A stretch of DNA of 64,000 bases from Sphingobium cloacae (GTDB lineage Bacteria; Pseudomonadota; Alphaproteobacteria; Sphingomonadales; Sphingomonadaceae), in NCBI RefSeq assembly GCF_002355855.1, contig NZ_AP017655.1, positions 1,116,001-1,180,000 on the forward strand. The letters run 5' to 3'. Positions 18,692 through 27,534 of the stretch are shown one piece after another. Position 1 is the first letter of the stretch, and every line of letters begins with the position of its first letter. Position numbers and translations under genes: made by a program. The notes under the pieces are model-generated. The model was given only the letters and a program-made list of their open reading frames with translations. It was not told where the DNA came from and did not search any database.

Positions 18692-20098
18692 ATGATGAAG
18701 AAACTAAAAGGCGTCGGTCCGATAGGGGCCGGCGCGATGATCCTGCTTGCCCTCAGCGCGGCGGCGGCCGTTACCCGGATGGGGACATCCCTCCCCACCA
18801 CCAGGAACAGTATCACCATCGCCAGCGGCAGTAACAGGGCCGCGTCACAAGCCACCTATACTGCAAAGGCATCCATCAATAGCAGCGGCATCGGCGATGA
18901 CAGCCGAACCGAAGGCAGCTTCGCCGCCTTCGATTTCGCCAGCGGAACGCGATTGCCGGAAAAGGCGACCGTCTCGCTCGGCAACGCCACCTTCAAACCC
19001 GGCGTGAATGTCGCCTATGTCCCGCTCACGCTGGATCGGCCGACGCCCAACACCATCATCATCCGTCTCGTCACGGTGAACGGCTCGGGCGCCGGCGCGG
19101 CGAAATCCGGCACCCATTACCGCACGGTCGACACGGTGGCCATCTTCCGCCCCGGCGATCCACTGCGCCAGACCATCGCCGTCCCCATCGTCGCCGCGCA
19201 GGAAGGGCAACAATTCCTGCTCAAGATGCGCGAAACGCCCTGGGGCGGCCTGCAAGGCCAGTCGGCCGCCATCATCACCGCCGACGGCAACGCGGCGGCC
19301 ACGGCGATGGCCACCGGCATCTTCCGCGCCCCGCGCACCTTCGCCGCGACCGGCACGCTCCAGTTCACGCTGGAGAAGGAAACGCACAAACGGTCGGCCG
19401 AAGGCGGCTGGAACCGCTGGGCCACGTCGCTTTCCCATGGGCGCACCCAGATCGCGAACGAGGAAACCGGCCTCTATCTCGACTCGTCGGTGTTCCCCGG
19501 CGTGGAAGGCCCGGTCTACTGGAGCAACAAGGGCCTTGTCCTGCACAGCCAGAAACTGAAAACACCCATCTATCACGAAGGGCGCAGCTGGCATTATGGC
19601 GCGTCGGTCCTGGACGGCCGCCACTATCTGGCGACCCAGATCGGCTATGGCCAATATGAATGGGAAGCGAAGATGCCCGACCGGCGCGGCGCATGGCCCG
19701 CTTTCTGGCTGATCTCTACCAGCGGCTGGCCGCCGGAAATCGATGTCTACGAAGGCTTCGGCCAGCAAAGCTACTGGGATTTCGACCGCCATGTCGCCCA
19801 CACCATCCACGGCGGGGCGAACGTCGCCCGCACATTCCAGCGCGGCATGGTCATCCAGACCGACCAGGCCTATGGCTGGAGCGGATACAGCCAGGACTTC
19901 CACCGCTTCGCCATCGACATCCAGCGCGACTATATCACCTGGTTCATCGACGGGAAGGAAAGCTATCAGTCGGTCAATCCCTTCCGGGGTTTCCGCTGGT
20001 ATCCGATCATGGACGTGGCCGTGAAAACCGGCGGAGCCTATGACGACGGCAGCGGCGACATGATCATCCGCAGCCTGAATATCCACTCGGCCCCTTAA
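18692..20098 (+). CDS. exported GH16-family glycoside hydrolase with an N-terminal beta domain
   Basis: This 468-aa protein has a signal peptide or anchor (about residues 1-28) and a beta-rich domain at about 85-200 that resembles Calx-beta modules (VSLGNATFKPGVNVAYVPL, then a late DPLRQTIAVPI). A GH16 domain follows from about residue 220, with catalytic motif E349-I-D351-V-Y-E354. GH16 enzymes cut beta-1,3 or beta-1,3-1,4 glucans, galactans and similar polymers. A role in trimming the cell's own exopolysaccharide is possible, but the substrate is unknown. Confidence 0.85.
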   Translation: MMKKLKGVGPIGAGAMILLALSAAAAVTRMGTSLPTTRNSITIASGSNRAASQATYTAKASINSSGIGDDSRTEGSFAAFDFASGTRLPEKATVSLGNATFKPGVNVAYVPLTLDRPTPNTIIIRLVTVNGSGAGAAKSGTHYRTVDTVAIFRPGDPLRQTIAVPIVAAQEGQQFLLKMRETPWGGLQGQSAAIITADGNAAATAMATGIFRAPRTFAATGTLQFTLEKETHKRSAEGGWNRWATSLSHGRTQIANEETGLYLDSSVFPGVEGPVYWSNKGLVLHSQKLKTPIYHEGRSWHYGASVLDGRHYLATQIGYGQYEWEAKMPDRRGAWPAFWLISTSGWPPEIDVYEGFGQQSYWDFDRHVAHTIHGGANVARTFQRGMVIQTDQAYGWSGYSQDFHRFAIDIQRDYITWFIDGKESYQSVNPFRGFRWYPIMDVAVKTGGAYDDGSGDMIIRSLNIHSAP

Positions 20099-20174: not shown

Positions 20175-20927
20175 CTACCCCGACAACAAAGCCGACAACC
20201 ACCATCCCGGCACCGCCGCAACGGCCAGGGCCGTCCCCAACGGCACCCGCGTCGCGCGCTCCACCCGCTTCCCAAGCGCCGCCGCCACGCCCACCGCGAG
20301 CAACCCGGTCCCGGCCGCCAGCAACAGCACAAAGGGCAAGGCCTGCCACCCGAACCACGCGCCCAGCGCGCCCAGCAGCTTGGCGTCGCCCAGCCCCAGC
20401 CCCTCGCGTCCCCGCGCCCACCGATAGGTCCACGCCACCGCCAGCAGCCCCGCATAGCCCGCCGCCGCGCCGATCGCCCGATCCGCCAGAACGGCGTCCG
20501 TCACCCACGAGCCGACGGTGAGCCCCAAAAAGGTCAGCGGCAAGGTCAGCGCATCGGGCAACCAGAAATGCCGCCAGTCCAGCACCGCCAGCGTCAACAG
20601 CCACCACCCCAGCAGCGCCCAGCCCAGCCCGGCGACATCCGGCGCGAGCCCGACCGCCAATGCCCCGATGACGGCGCAGGCGGCCTCCACCCGGCCATGC
20701 AGCGGATCGATCCGCGCGCCGCACGTCCGGCACCGTCCCCGCTGCGCCATGGCGCTCAGCAACGGCACCAGATCGCCCGCGCCCAGCGTCCGCCCGCATC
20801 CGTCGCAGGCCGACCGCCCCCGCATGACGCCCCGTCCCTGCGGCCATCGCAGGATCAGCGTCGCAAGGAAACTCCCCGCAATCGCCCCGGCCACGCCGCC
20901 GAGCATCGCGCCAAGCGGTTCGATCAC
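20175..20927 (-). CDS. gspO: type II secretion prepilin peptidase/N-methylase GspO
   Basis: This 250-aa A24 aspartic peptidase of the inner membrane cleaves prepseudopilins (GspG-K) after glycine and N-methylates the new end. The N-terminal cytoplasmic domain has the zinc pairs CDGCG and CRTCG. The catalytic aspartates sit in VLDWRHFWLPD and GLGLGDAKL. It starts with GTG at 20927, overlapping the gspN stop (GTGA). It is the last gene of the gsp operon. Confidence 0.95.
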   Translation of the reverse strand: MIEPLGAMLGGVAGAIAGSFLATLILRWPQGRGVMRGRSACDGCGRTLGAGDLVPLLSAMAQRGRCRTCGARIDPLHGRVEAACAVIGALAVGLAPDVAGLGWALLGWWLLTLAVLDWRHFWLPDALTLPLTFLGLTVGSWVTDAVLADRAIGAAAGYAGLLAVAWTYRWARGREGLGLGDAKLLGALGAWFGWQALPFVLLLAAGTGLLAVGVAAALGKRVERATRVPLGTALAVAAVPGWWLSALLSG

Positions 20928-23246: not shown

Positions 23247-24232
23247 GCGCCGCTGCCCCAGCTGCGCCGCACCAGCGTGGCCGGGCTTTGCCGGGCATCG
23301 ATCAGCCCCCGTTCCACCACCTGCGTTCCCCCGACATTCACCGCCACTTCCACCCCGAAAAATCCCGTCGTCACCTTGACCTGCCGGGCCGCCTCCTCCA
23401 GCGGATTGATGCCCAGATTCGATGGCCCCGCCCAGAACTGCACCACGCTGCCGTAGCCTTGCTCGGGCCGCTGCGCCAGCATTTGCCGCGCCTGCGCCAC
23501 GCTCATCTGCCCCTGGAGCAGCATGACCAGCAGCGGCGCCTGATCGGGCAGCAGCGTGTTCACGTTGATCGGCGACAGGTCCGCCGTCGGCAGCGCGCAC
23601 ACCCATGGCCGCGCCAGATCGTAGATGGCGGGCGTCACCCCGTTCACCGCCCGCAATTCGCTGGCGTCCACCATGAAGCGGTTGGCGGTGCGATAGGGCC
23701 GCTCCGCCCGCGCATAGACCTCGTCCTCCGCCCCGCCCGGCTGCGGCGCGCTGTCGCTGTCGACCCAGTCCGCCAGCGAAGCCGCCGCCACCTGCGCCTG
23801 CCGCGCATCCACGCCCAGCGCCTGCAACAGCGCCTGAAACTGCGTCACGCCGATGGGCCGCACCTTGAGGTTCGCCTCATTCTCCCCTTCGACCACGCTG
23901 TTGAGGTTGAAGCAATTCCCCCCATCGCTCACCCGCGCCGTAGCAATGCCGCCCGGCACCGGAATGTCGCGCGGCGCGCCCATCCAGCCGCCCGCCAGCG
24001 TCGTCCTGCCCGGATTGGCCGCGACCAGATCGCCAATCTTGAGCCGCGCGATCTCCATGCCCGCATCGGCAAAGGCCCGCGCCTGATCGACCGCGCCGCC
24101 ATTGCCCGTCATCCGCGTCGCCAGCGCCAGCCGCTCCAGCGCCGTGGAGGCCACCACCGCCATCACCGCCACCAGCAGCAGCACCGTCAGCAACGCCGCG
24201 CCGCGCTCGCCCTCTTTGCGGGGATCAGCCAA
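23243..24232 (-). CDS. gspK: minor pseudopilin GspK
   Basis: This 329-aa tip pseudopilin has the leader MADPRKEGERG and then AALLTVLLLVAVMAVVAS. The residue at mature +1 is Ala rather than Phe, and there is no Glu at +5, as is normal for GspK. A large alpha domain is inserted between pilin-fold parts. The start appears to be TTG at 24232, overlapping gspJ by 8 bp; I see no better ATG. It caps the pseudopilus tip with GspI and GspJ. Confidence 0.92.
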   Translation of the reverse strand: MADPRKEGERGAALLTVLLLVAVMAVVASTALERLALATRMTGNGGAVDQARAFADAGMEIARLKIGDLVAANPGRTTLAGGWMGAPRDIPVPGGIATARVSDGGNCFNLNSVVEGENEANLKVRPIGVTQFQALLQALGVDARQAQVAAASLADWVDSDSAPQPGGAEDEVYARAERPYRTANRFMVDASELRAVNGVTPAIYDLARPWVCALPTADLSPINVNTLLPDQAPLLVMLLQGQMSVAQARQMLAQRPEQGYGSVVQFWAGPSNLGINPLEEAARQVKVTTGFFGVEVAVNVGGTQVVERGLIDARQSPATLVRRSWGSGA

Positions 24233-24881
24233 AGTCGCCCTCCCCCTGCACCGCCTGCTTCTCCGCCGGGCCCGGCCCGACCAGGAAACGCAGCGTCACC
24301 CCCGGCTCGCCCGCGCGAGTCACCGTCATCTCCACGGCGCGCGGCATCAGGTCCGGCTGCGTCGGCGTCCATTCGTCGCGCCACTCGCCCTGCGCATCCC
24401 GGAACCGCAAGGCCACATCCTCGACCTGATCGAGCAGCGCCGCCGGTTCATCCCCCGCCGCGCCATCGACCTGCGCGTAGGTCCGCCGCTCCAGCCGCCC
24501 CTGCCGCACCCAATATTCGACCTTCTGCAAGGAAGGCCGCGGCAGATTGCCCAGATTGTCCCAGCCGCCGCGCACGAATTGCAGGACCGGCACCCCCTCG
24601 CCTTCCCGATGCGACCAGAAGGCGGGCGCGAGCGTCCCCGTCTCCGTGCGGCTGATGCGCGGCACCGCCTGCCCCAGATCGGCCGCCAGAGCGCCGCCCG
24701 CCCGCTGCACCGCCGCCAGATCGTCGAGCCGCGCCTTGACCTGCGCCTGCGCCGACACGCTATTGCCCAGCAACAACACGCCCGCGCTCGCCAGCATCGC
24801 GAAGATCATCAGCGCGACCAGCAATTCGATCAGCGTGAAGCCCCGCTCCCCGCCTCCATCAGGGTGAAGGGACTTCATCAC
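24225..24881 (-). CDS. gspJ: minor pseudopilin GspJ
   Basis: This 218-aa prepilin-like protein has the leader MMKSLHPDGGGERG followed by the methylation motif FTLIELLVALMIFAML, with Glu at +5. The beta-rich C-terminal domain follows. It forms the pseudopilus tip complex with GspI and GspK. It overlaps gspI by 4 bp and gspK by 8 bp. Confidence 0.95.
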   Translation of the reverse strand: MMKSLHPDGGGERGFTLIELLVALMIFAMLASAGVLLLGNSVSAQAQVKARLDDLAAVQRAGGALAADLGQAVPRISRTETGTLAPAFWSHREGEGVPVLQFVRGGWDNLGNLPRPSLQKVEYWVRQGRLERRTYAQVDGAAGDEPAALLDQVEDVALRFRDAQGEWRDEWTPTQPDLMPRAVEMTVTRAGEPGVTLRFLVGPGPAEKQAVQGEGDFG

Positions 24882-25258
24882 CCCACCACCCGCACGAAAC
24901 TCAGCGCCGCCGGGGAAGCGCCCGCCTGCCCCTCCACGGTCACATCCACCTGCAACAACCGCTTGTCGTCCGTCGCCTTCACCACCCGCTTCCAGCGCCA
25001 GCGCCGCCCGCCATTCTCGACCTCGCCCTCCTCCTCGCCGACCGAAGGGGGCGCGGGATCGGTCTGCGCCTCGACCATCAGGTTGCGCGCCACGATCTGC
25101 CCCAGCGCCTTGCTGTCGAGGTCCGCCGCCGTCCGCAGCGTCACTCCCTGCAAGCGCACCAGCGCCAGCGCCGCCAGGCTGAACACCGCCAGCGCCACCA
25201 GCATCTCCAGCAGCGTGAAGCCCTGTTCTCCATTTCGAACGGACGGCCGTCTACTCAC
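24878..25258 (-). CDS. gspI: minor pseudopilin GspI
   Basis: This 126-aa pseudopilin has the leader MSRRPSVRNGEQG and then FTLLEMLVALAVFSLAALAL, with Glu at +5. The start is GTG at 25258, overlapping the gspH stop by 8 bp. GspI nucleates the tip trimer. Length is typical. Confidence 0.93.
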   Translation of the reverse strand: MSRRPSVRNGEQGFTLLEMLVALAVFSLAALALVRLQGVTLRTAADLDSKALGQIVARNLMVEAQTDPAPPSVGEEEGEVENGGRRWRWKRVVKATDDKRLLQVDVTVEGQAGASPAALSFVRVVG

Positions 25259-25739
25259 CGACCATGACCTTCCCGGCCATATCGACCGTCACCGAAACCC
25301 GTTCGCCCTCCCGCGCCAGGGTCACCTTCAGCGGATCGGTGGGCAGGCCCGTCCCGTCAAAGCCGATCTGCTTCACGCCGTCCTTGCCGACCAGCGCCCG
25401 CGTGCCCGCCTTCCAGTTGGCGGTGACGAAGGGCCTGTCCTCCATCGCCACCCATTGCGCCCCCTCCCGGCGCTGGAAGCCATAGCCCGAAGCCGACACC
25501 CACACGCCCATCGGGTGCGATGTCACGACCGCTTCGTCGCGCGCGGCGGCCACGCGCGCGGCAAAGCGGTCGGCATCCTCGATCACCCGCCCACGCGGGT
25601 CCGGCATCGCCAGCACGACCGCCGCCGAAACGAAACCGATGATCGTCAGCACCACCATCAACTCAACAAGGGTAAAGCCATCCTGCCGCACAGGACGGAC
25701 CAGCGCACCTTCAAAGCGCGCTGGAATAAATATCGGCAT
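25251..25739 (-). CDS. gspH: minor pseudopilin GspH
   Basis: This pseudopilin of about 162 aa has a long leader of about 21 residues ending RQDG and then FTLVELMVVLTIIGFVS. The C-terminal domain has a GspH-like YGFQRREG strand. Two starts are possible. ATG 25739 has GGAG 9 nt upstream; ATG 25745 has it only 3 nt away, so 25739 is preferred. Either start overlaps the end of gspG by about 30 bp, which is unusual beside the 4-8 bp overlaps of the rest of the operon. Confidence 0.88.
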   Translation of the reverse strand: MPIFIPARFEGALVRPVRQDGFTLVELMVVLTIIGFVSAAVVLAMPDPRGRVIEDADRFAARVAAARDEAVVTSHPMGVWVSASGYGFQRREGAQWVAMEDRPFVTANWKAGTRALVGKDGVKQIGFDGTGLPTDPLKVTLAREGERVSVTVDMAGKVMVGE

Positions 25740-26307
25740 TCTCATGATCTCCGCCCGGCTGCCCGTCCGCGCCCAGCGACACGATGTCGAACGCGCCCTT
25801 CCGGCCCGGCACGGTATAGCTATAGGGCCGCCCCCAGGGATCGTTGGGCAGCTTCTTGATATAGCCCCCGCGCCGGTAACGCTGCGGCTGAGCCAGCGAA
25901 GCGGGCGGCGCCAGCAGCGCCTGCAACCCGTCCGTCGCTGAGGGATAGGTGAGGTTGTCGAGCCGATACTGCTCCAGCGCCTGCTCGATAGTGGCGACAT
26001 CCGCCTTCGCCTTCTCGACCCGCGCCGTGTCGGTCGCCGGGATGACGTTGATCGCCACGATCGTCGCCAGCAGGCCGATGATGACGATCACGACCATCAG
26101 TTCGACCAACGTGAAGCCGTGTTCGGCGGAACGTCGCAAAGAAGTGAAGCCGTGTTCGGCGGAACGTCGCAAAGAAGTGGAGCCGTGTTCGGCGGAACGC
26201 CCCGAAGAAACGAAGCCGTGTTCGGCGGAGTGCCTCAAGGAGGTGAAGCCGCGTGCGTTGGCACTCGAACACGGCTGGTTGTCAGGATGGCGGAACAGTT
26301 TGAACAT
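25711..26307 (-). CDS. gspG: major pseudopilin GspG with a repeat-expanded leader
   Basis: The mature part is a standard GspG: FTLVELMVVIVIIGLLATIVAINV, the motif PNDPWGRPY, and a calcium-loop-like C-terminus (GADGQPGGDHENADI). The leader is abnormal. It runs about 64 residues instead of the usual 6-20 and contains an 11-residue unit repeated four times, each including SAEHG. Only the last G/F junction is followed by Glu at +5, so cleavage is expected there. The ATG at 26307 has GGAG 5 nt upstream; a GTG two codons earlier is possible. It lies 9 bp after gspF. Confidence 0.93.
   Translation of the reverse strand: MFKLFRHPDNQPCSSANARGFTSLRHSAEHGFVSSGRSAEHGSTSLRRSAEHGFTSLRRSAEHGFTLVELMVVIVIIGLLATIVAINVIPATDTARVEKAKADVATIEQALEQYRLDNLTYPSATDGLQALLAPPASLAQPQRYRRGGYIKKLPNDPWGRPYSYTVPGRKGAFDIVSLGADGQPGGDHENADIYSSAL
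26111..26242. repeat. four tandem 33-bp repeats inside the gspG leader
   Basis: Units lie at 26111-26143, 26144-26176, 26177-26209 and 26210-26242. The first two are identical on reading, and the third and fourth carry several substitutions. A more decayed copy may follow from 26243. Units are contiguous with no spacers. Being 33 bp, they keep the reading frame and add 11 residues per copy to the GspG leader. Confidence 0.95.
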
Positions 26308-26316
26308 ATGCACTCC

Positions 26317-27534
26317 TCAAGCCCCCGTCAGGCTCTGCAATTGCAGGATCGGCAGCAGGATGGACAGGATGATGACGGCGACGATGCCGCCCATGGCGAT
26401 GATGATGATCGGCTCCAGCATCGCCAGCGCCGCGGAGGTGAAGCTGTCGAACTCCCGTTCCAGATAGTCCGCCGCCCGTTCCAGCATGGTATCCAGCCGC
26501 CCCGCGCTCTCCCCGCTGGCGGCCAGATAAACCAGCAGCGGCGGAAACACGCCCGCCCGCCGCAGCGCCGCCGACAGGCTGCCGCCGCCGCGAATGGCCT
26601 CGACGATCTGCTCGGAAGCCTGCCGCAGCACGCGATTATGGACCGTCTGCGTCGTCAGCGACAGCCCCTCCATCAACGGCAAGCGGCTCGCGACCATGGT
26701 GGAAAGCGTCCGCGCCATCCGCGCCGCATGCAGGTCGCGGATCAGGCGGCCCAATAAAGGCAATCGCAACAGCGTGGCATCGACGCGATAATGGAAACTC
26801 TCGATTTTCAGCGCCCGCCAGAAACCGAACGCCCCCAACCCCATCAGGATCAGCAGCAGCCACCAATAGCCCGCCAGAAAGGCCGAAACCCCCATCACCA
26901 TCCGCGTCAGCAGCGGCAATTGCTGTCCGACCGTATCGAACTGCTCCACCACCTTGGGCACGACGAAGATCATCAGCGCCGCCACCACGCACACGGCAAA
27001 GACCGCCAGCACGCTGGGATAGGCGATGGCGGTCAGCACCTTGGCCCGGATCACCGCCTGCCGCTCCATCAGTTCGGAAAGCCGCTCCATGATCGTGGGC
27101 AGGCTGCCCGAGCTCTCGCCGGCGGAGATCATCGCGCGATAGAGCGCCGGAAAGCTCTTCGGCTCCGCGCCCAGCGCATCGGCCAGCCGCCGTCCTTCCA
27201 GCACGCCCGCATGGACCTTGCCCACGATGGCGCGGACGTGCGCCTGCTCGCTCTGCCGCCCGATGGTGCGGAGCGCCTCCTCCAGCGGGCTGACCTGCAC
27301 CAGCGTCGATAATTGCCGCGTGAACAGCGTCAGTTCCTTGGCCGAAAGGCGCGGGCTGCGCAGCGACAGCCCCGCCCGCTTGCGCGCCGTCTCCACCGCG
27401 CCCGGCTCGATCCGCACGATAAACAGCTTGCGCGCGTCCAGCCGCGCCCGCGCATCGTCCACCGTGTCGGCCTTGACCGATCCCTTCCGCTCGCGCCCCG
27501 CCGGGTCGATGGCGATATAGTCGAACTCAGTCAT
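26317..27534 (-). CDS. gspF: type II secretion inner-membrane platform protein GspF
   Basis: This 405-aa polytopic protein has two homologous T2SSF domains (about residues 70-195 and 270-395), each with helical bundles, and three membrane helices. The motifs MISAGESSGSLP and YLAASGESAGRLD are the repeated family signature. The ATG at 27534 overlaps the gspE stop by 8 bp and gives the standard N-terminus MTEFDYIAID. It forms the rotor-like platform core that contacts GspE. Confidence 0.96.
   Translation of the reverse strand: MTEFDYIAIDPAGRERKGSVKADTVDDARARLDARKLFIVRIEPGAVETARKRAGLSLRSPRLSAKELTLFTRQLSTLVQVSPLEEALRTIGRQSEQAHVRAIVGKVHAGVLEGRRLADALGAEPKSFPALYRAMISAGESSGSLPTIMERLSELMERQAVIRAKVLTAIAYPSVLAVFAVCVVAALMIFVVPKVVEQFDTVGQQLPLLTRMVMGVSAFLAGYWWLLLILMGLGAFGFWRALKIESFHYRVDATLLRLPLLGRLIRDLHAARMARTLSTMVASRLPLMEGLSLTTQTVHNRVLRQASEQIVEAIRGGGSLSAALRRAGVFPPLLVYLAASGESAGRLDTMLERAADYLEREFDSFTSAALAMLEPIIIIAMGGIVAVIILSILLPILQLQSLTGA

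Follow-up and report, generated by a model that had tools for sequence, protein, structure and literature searches.

The extended leader of the major pseudopilin GspG in Sphingobium cloacae is real and translated, and it represents one case of a pattern that runs across the Sphingomonadaceae. In this family, the cytoplasmic leaders of the T2SS pseudopilins GspG, GspH, GspI and GspJ form a hypervariable zone, filled with two kinds of DNA. The first kind is a 33-bp unit with a palindrome-containing core, which is found almost only in these leaders, in all four genes and in copy numbers that differ. The second is dispersed REP-type palindromes, inserted in frame. We favour, with a probability of about 0.6, the reading that the leader is a tolerated refuge for a leader-confined repeat and for selfish palindromes, with the frame kept by selection. 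A leader that is cytoplasmic and cut off would be a stretch tolerant of added in-frame sequence. The leader stretch is a place where repeated and selfish DNA can build up within a gene that seems functional, with little visible cost, since its product is presumably cut off. Nature thereby supplies leaders of every size between 17 and 86 residues on mature pseudopilins that are close relatives, and the requirements for the content of a prepilin leader can be put to a direct test.

The gene that introduces this pattern lies in the window, the whole stretch of 64,000 nucleotides that was analysed. On its minus strand, gspG (25711..26307) encodes a pseudopilin of 198 residues. Translation from the ATG at 26307 reads MFKLFRHPDNQPCSSANARGFTSLRHSAEHGFVSSGRSAEHGSTSLRRSAEHGFTSLRRSAEHG|FTLVELMVV, a 64-residue leader before the cleavage site, and a GTG two codons upstream would lengthen the leader to 66 if used. 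The coding region of the extended leader, down to the Gly at -1 of G|FTLVE, is 26116..26307 (minus strand), with the cleavage site placed by the N_methyl/TIGR02532 motif. The ATG stands 9 bases past the gspF stop codon and behind GAGGAG (26313..26318, minus strand), a likely ribosome-binding site that overlaps this stop codon (26317-26319), and the relatives show a similar spacing of the gspG start. The identity of the protein is given by a profile search, in which TIGR01710 matches residues 63-194 (E 5.2e-50, 169 bits against a cut-off of 88.85) and PF08334 and PF07963 match as well, and by the place of the gene between gspF and gspH. The leader is unstructured in the predicted AlphaFold model, with pLDDT under 50 across residues 9-61; this model has a mean pLDDT of 58 from 28 sequences and was used for the lack of structure in the leader only. 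An Rfam search of 25600-26500 returned a single sub-threshold match, to mir-598 (22.9 bits, gathering 69), which we took as chance.

Four contiguous 33-bp units occupy 26111..26242 (minus strand) within this leader. They had been claimed in a preliminary description, together with a leader of about 64 residues, and TRF, core matches and translation all confirm them. TRF reports a single array at 26111-26251, with a period of 33, 4.3 copies, 86% matches and a score of 198, and the runner-up among the 11 rows of the window scores 68. The unit core, CGTTCCGCCGAACACGGCTTC, is exact at 26113..26133, where its G|F would be the true site of cleavage, and exact again at 26146..26166; the copy at 26179..26199 carries one mismatch (TTC to TCC, F to S) and the copy at 26212..26232 carries two (CAC for CGT), all on the minus strand. 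The same description rightly stated that most units keep EHG-F and that the last one alone precedes FTLVE, the second unit having S in place of F after EHG. The upstream-most unit has 4 extra bases between GGCACTC and GAACACGGC. An inverted copy of these two parts, GCCGTGTTCGAGTGCC, is seen in the sequence at 26260..26275 (minus strand), and may be a footprint of the sort expected from template switching at hairpins; an ungapped repeat search reported no inverted pair.

The surrounding T2SS operon is on the minus strand. Profiles matched gspF (26317..27534, TIGR02120), gspG, gspH (25251..25745, TIGR01708 at 79 bits against a cut-off of 80), gspI (24878..25258), gspJ (24225..24881) and a prepilin peptidase gene, gspO (20175..20927, PF06750 and PF01478); the remaining operon genes of the window were read by eye from the list of open reading frames. 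Here gspH, gspI and gspJ are without repeat units, and their leaders, counted from the chosen starts, have about 23, 13 and 14 residues, respectively, close to the 10-21 given earlier for the other pseudopilins. The peptidase, for which an NCBIfam search gave no match, is the presumed leader-cleaving enzyme. Its gene and the G|F motif of GspG are both present, and removal of the leader would take place at G|F itself. Beyond the operon, on the plus strand, an open reading frame of 468 residues (18692-20098) has an apparent N-terminal signal and an EIDVYE motif, which by eye we take to resemble GH16 glycoside hydrolases; judged from its sequence, it is a possible candidate for a T2SS substrate.

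The core hardly occurs outside pseudopilin leaders. In the genome of the window (4.55 Mb), a search at up to 3 mismatches finds it four times in gspG and once elsewhere, at 3. At up to 2 mismatches, it is present in 54 of 61 same-genus genomes. In the 46 of these 61 genomes whose gspG locus was retrieved, 149 of 151 matches are pseudopilin leaders read in frame, a confinement that is not the dispersal of a REP. This breaks down into 148 matches in the gspG locus, of which 146 run in frame into a pseudopilin by script, and further in-frame cases comprising one variant motif (G029) and two in the leaders of a second system (G046). The other two matches are an out-of-frame copy in a gspI leader (G018), discussed below, and a stray one (G034). 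Among the remaining 15 same-genus genomes, G019, G026 and G090 have no match; G032, G083, G080, G081, G084-G087 and G089 have, on reading, matches in pseudopilin leaders throughout, except for a single stray match in G083. For G041 the location comes from coordinates alone, and G082 and G088 stayed outside this reading. Across the family, the core at up to one mismatch is found in 24 of 298 genomes and 13 of 96 genera, in a search that lists the first places per genome. By coordinates it is within about 2.2 kb of gspG in 21 of the 24, and the other three (G276, G341, G363) turn out on reading to be pseudopilin leaders. A core search over a class sample of 289 genomes, 285 of them from other families, matched in the window's own genome only. 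A search for a mobile vehicle of the unit found none, which speaks against the favoured reading: viral contigs gave no exact core match, and among 26 records from a plasmid search with an 81-nt query, no single place reached 80% coverage of it. The lowest E-value there, 4e-3, belongs to a 30-base match between genes in Caballeronia.

The relatives carry the unit in all four pseudopilin genes. We compared 47 same-genus loci fetched by GspG similarity, which come from 45 of the 49 same-genus genomes of a first search (two others had no match and two had only weak ones) and from two genomes of the family search. By amino-acid motif, at least one unit stands at the cleavage site in 29 of 47 GspG, 24 of 45 GspH, 16 of 46 GspI and 15 of 43 GspJ, and at least two units in 16, 16, 7 and 9, respectively. 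The tandem units are of the 11-residue RSAEHGF type. GspG had been thought odd among the pseudopilins in carrying such repeats; this is not supported, as GspH, GspI and GspJ of the relatives have the same units. Second or divergent systems also have the unit in their pseudopilin leaders (L180 of G032, L179 of G046), with four RRSAEHGFTFA-type units in G032.

The sameness of the core extends to its codons. The codon set consists of 157 same-genus units in pseudopilin leaders (44 loci), with the mature pseudopilin parts as reference. For the core Arg, 145 of the 157 units use CGT, which makes up 8% of the Arg codons of the mature parts. Likewise, Ser is TCC in 145/149 (mature 17%), Gln is CAA in 40/45 (15%), Ala is GCC in 147/152 (30%), Glu is GAA in 104/112 (36%), His is CAC in 93/97 (36%) and Gly is GGC in 153/157 (60%). 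Other genera give CGT in 90 of 97 units against 12%, in a sample that leans to the consensus because its 15 loci were chosen for having units, four of them via the DNA pattern. In four other-genus loci, the four-fold sites of mature GspG match those of the window at 48-61%; of the 23 cores in these loci, 19 show at most one mismatch over 21 positions. Of 16 loci entered in this comparison, 9 (counting that of the window) had a recognisable mature part, and one same-genus locus, at 57% four-fold identity, falls within the other-genus range. An identical full 33-mer is found in four genera. Additionally, neighbouring units differ by 0.047 per site in the core (120 pairs) against 0.242 in the linker (53 pairs), about five-fold, in a set that still included a few chance motifs.

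A tolerated leader explains the REPs, the swings in length and the frame, but does not by itself explain the cross-genus DNA sameness of the core. Tolerated filler does not explain a core that stays near-identical at such four-fold identities, nor why the core is kept and the linker is not. Either the unit continues to spread as DNA through these genes and genomes, or selection acts on the core at the level of DNA or RNA. The first option we hold as a tentative possibility: the 33-bp unit could be a new coding mini-element, confined to prepilin leaders of a single secretion machine and of its near relations, and moving between genes and genera as conserved DNA, with the leader as a harmless landing place, and it may act as a hairpin. 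In the gspI leader of G018 (L016, about 2736-2760 of the locus), a unit copy reading KRSAQQGFTP lies between the arms of a REP-type palindrome, in its loop and out of the gspI frame. Such a copy is expected if the unit moves as DNA, and it speaks for DNA.

The second option appears rather doubtful, although the unit may have a DNA- or RNA-level role. It holds that the core is a functional element, a hairpin or a binding site that, for example, tunes translation or mRNA processing of the pseudopilin genes, and that the arrays multiply this site. Core codons far from local usage, in the genus and outside it, argue for such an element, as do cores near the consensus in genera with strongly diverged silent sites. 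The core also has a stem, GCCG-AACA-CGGC, whose counterpart in RSAQQGF units is GCCC-AACA-GGGC. With G-T counted, 239 of 249 units pair position 10 with position 15, mostly as G-C, and the RSAQQGF variant has C-G there, a two-sided change. QQG and EHG are both ordinary ends of prepilin leaders. The covariation is a lead and not a result, because it is confounded by amino-acid constraints, codon bias and shared ancestry, and a shared ancestry of the RSAQQGF variant explains it. The commonest silent changes, in the third base of CGT and of GAA, run toward preferred codons, so the conservation of the stem is confounded by base composition. Moreover, 18 of the 47 same-genus gspG leaders are without a unit at the cleavage site, which means that the gene can do without it.

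The contents of the leader turn over on nearly unchanged proteins. Annotated leaders have 8 to 86 residues among the 120 listed of 6502 homologues. Two proteins with identical mature GspG (P0023 and P0073) have unrelated leaders, and 1, 2 or 3 units stand on otherwise matching leaders (P0037 or P0046, P0012 and P0006, respectively) whose mature parts are 98.5-100% identical. These are database proteins of different organisms, so the variation is between lineages. The proposal of a slippage hot spot that varies in number thus holds between lineages, with slippage itself as the probable cause. In the draft genome G229, two contigs (C53 and C84, loci L137 and L181) share 1740 bp at 100% identity and differ in unit number, with at least 7 against 4 units in gspG and 5 against 9 in a gspJ-like gene. 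As an array lies at or next to the start of C53 and the end of C84, this difference may be an assembly effect or reflect real variants, and it was left out of the turnover evidence.

REP-type palindromes are the other content of these leaders. By hand-made motifs, 28 of 44 GspG leaders have one (family A in 10, B in 14, C in 2 and D in 2), and by the same motifs the other 16 have none, the window's among them, which is a point against the favoured reading. Stable hairpins are predicted in 13 folded leaders, those of 12 relatives and of the window, folded without a shuffled control; that of L027 folds at -83.6 kcal/mol. Dispersal in the genome was shown for two of the four families. Family A is dispersed in 7 of 8 genomes, the window's own being the one without a match, and family B in all 8 genomes examined for it, the window's own with 21 matches. 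In these counts a palindrome may appear once per strand and the copy in the leader is included, and in most genomes they come from 40 scored candidates. Three gspG leaders (L017, L034 and L040) keep one REP end only, reading RLRGND, RLRGDD and TLRGND, a state that looks like an in-frame loss of the remaining palindrome. The leaders of L030 and L043 have the fourth palindromic family in frame, CCCTCCCT...AGGGAGGGG, which reads PNPSLGREG or PLPSREG.

Whatever the content, the frame is kept. Comparison of the gspF-gspG junctions places an ATG at most 33 nt from the gspF stop in 45 of the 47 same-genus loci, and 9-11 bases past this stop in 39; the exceptions are one locus without a recognised junction (L048) and one without an ATG within 33 bases (L047). 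From this shared start, 44 of the 45 read in the correct frame up to the cleavage site without meeting a stop, and their leaders have 17-86 residues (median 41.5). Over 43 leaders (those among L006-L050 with such an ATG), a single stop occurs among the 1856 codons of frame 0, compared with 53 and 68 stops in the other two frames, each of 1813 codons. The binomial figure for frame retention is 3e-20, which ignores shared ancestry. This retention, and the fact that most units supply RR or KR plus the G-F context, would also fit a long leader that is functional in itself, its length or its many Arg, His and Glu residues setting the insertion, processing rate or dosage of GspG. We consider this quite unlikely, given a length that runs from the shortest to the longest of these leaders in one genus and unrelated content on identical mature GspG.

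The frame evidence likewise makes it unlikely, from sequence comparison, that translation begins downstream and that repeats and REPs lie in an untranslated spacer. Several genomes do have an in-frame TTG or GTG 8 residues before the cleavage site, and REPs at N-termini can cause such misannotation (Di Nocera et al. 2013, PMC3733652). One relative, G001 (L032), seems to start internally, which also speaks against the favoured reading: because of a frameshift in the REP of its leader, reading from the shared start ends at a stop codon, whereas an ATG within this REP opens the frame of the mature protein and would give a 19-residue leader, so that translation there appears to begin inside the REP. 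Against a single stop in frame 0, with 121 per 3626 codons in the other two frames, and against a start beside the gspF stop that nearly all loci share, a wrong start has a very small probability. In distant bacteria, the nearest in-frame ATG is 7-44 residues before the cleavage site (24 usable GspG from 40 non-family loci, L051-L055 and L058-L092, of a genome-contig scan that kept 80 loci, nearly all from distant bacteria). An assembly or sequencing artefact, which contigs of a draft genome (G229) ending inside such arrays might suggest, is practically negligible, as the units of the window differ from each other and the same kind of unit occurs in many independent assemblies.

If the leader is a tolerated refuge, its history may be outlined as follows. 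The number of units would change through slipped-strand mispairing or template switching, helped by hairpins, and REPs would arrive by transposition. Selection would ask for no more than a frame free of stops, a leader that is cytoplasmic and positive, and an undamaged G|F site, and would remove frameshifts and losses of G|F. The mature pseudopilin would remain unaffected and selection on the leader lax, because the prepilin peptidase cuts the leader off.

In the open-access papers covered by our searches, we found none on repeat build-up or REP insertion in pseudopilin leaders, nor a DNA-conserved unit confined to pseudopilin genes. The nearest systems resemble the leaders described here in part. 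Class III prepilin leaders are cytoplasmic and hydrophilic, end in Gly and are cut by prepilin peptidase, and leaders of varying length as well as very long ones are known, the long ones in pilins of Streptococcus sanguinis (PMC10191384). The sections consulted of that account mention neither repeat build-up nor palindromic inserts, whereas here the length changes from species to species. PARCEL elements (Roske et al. 2010, PMC2996958) are alike in being variable-number tandem coding repeats with dyad symmetry of the DNA, a punctate distribution and a suggested horizontal spread. However, they are amphipathic domains of 25 residues, and the present unit has a period of 33 bp, hence 11 residues, in a leader that is presumably removed. 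Small palindromic repeats inside coding genes are known as Rickettsia elements and as intragenic CGTC/GTAG REPs, the latter described with a CGTC tag, an 8-bp stem from AT, a 4-base loop and a CCA tail (PMC3733652). Leader family A fits this description as an inverted dimer: by eye, L027 reads CGTC-ATTCCCGC-GCAG-GCGGGAAT-CCA, in line with the features of that group (the tag, stems of 8-9 bp from AT, loops of 4-5 bases and the tail). The remaining family A leaders vary, and the palindromes of B, C and D belong to separate families. Unlike REPs, copies of the 33-bp unit are not scattered through the genome. Furthermore, the CGTC/GTAG REPs and the Rickettsia elements are reported from varied and unrelated proteins, whereas the leader inserts recur in the cleaved leaders of one machine.
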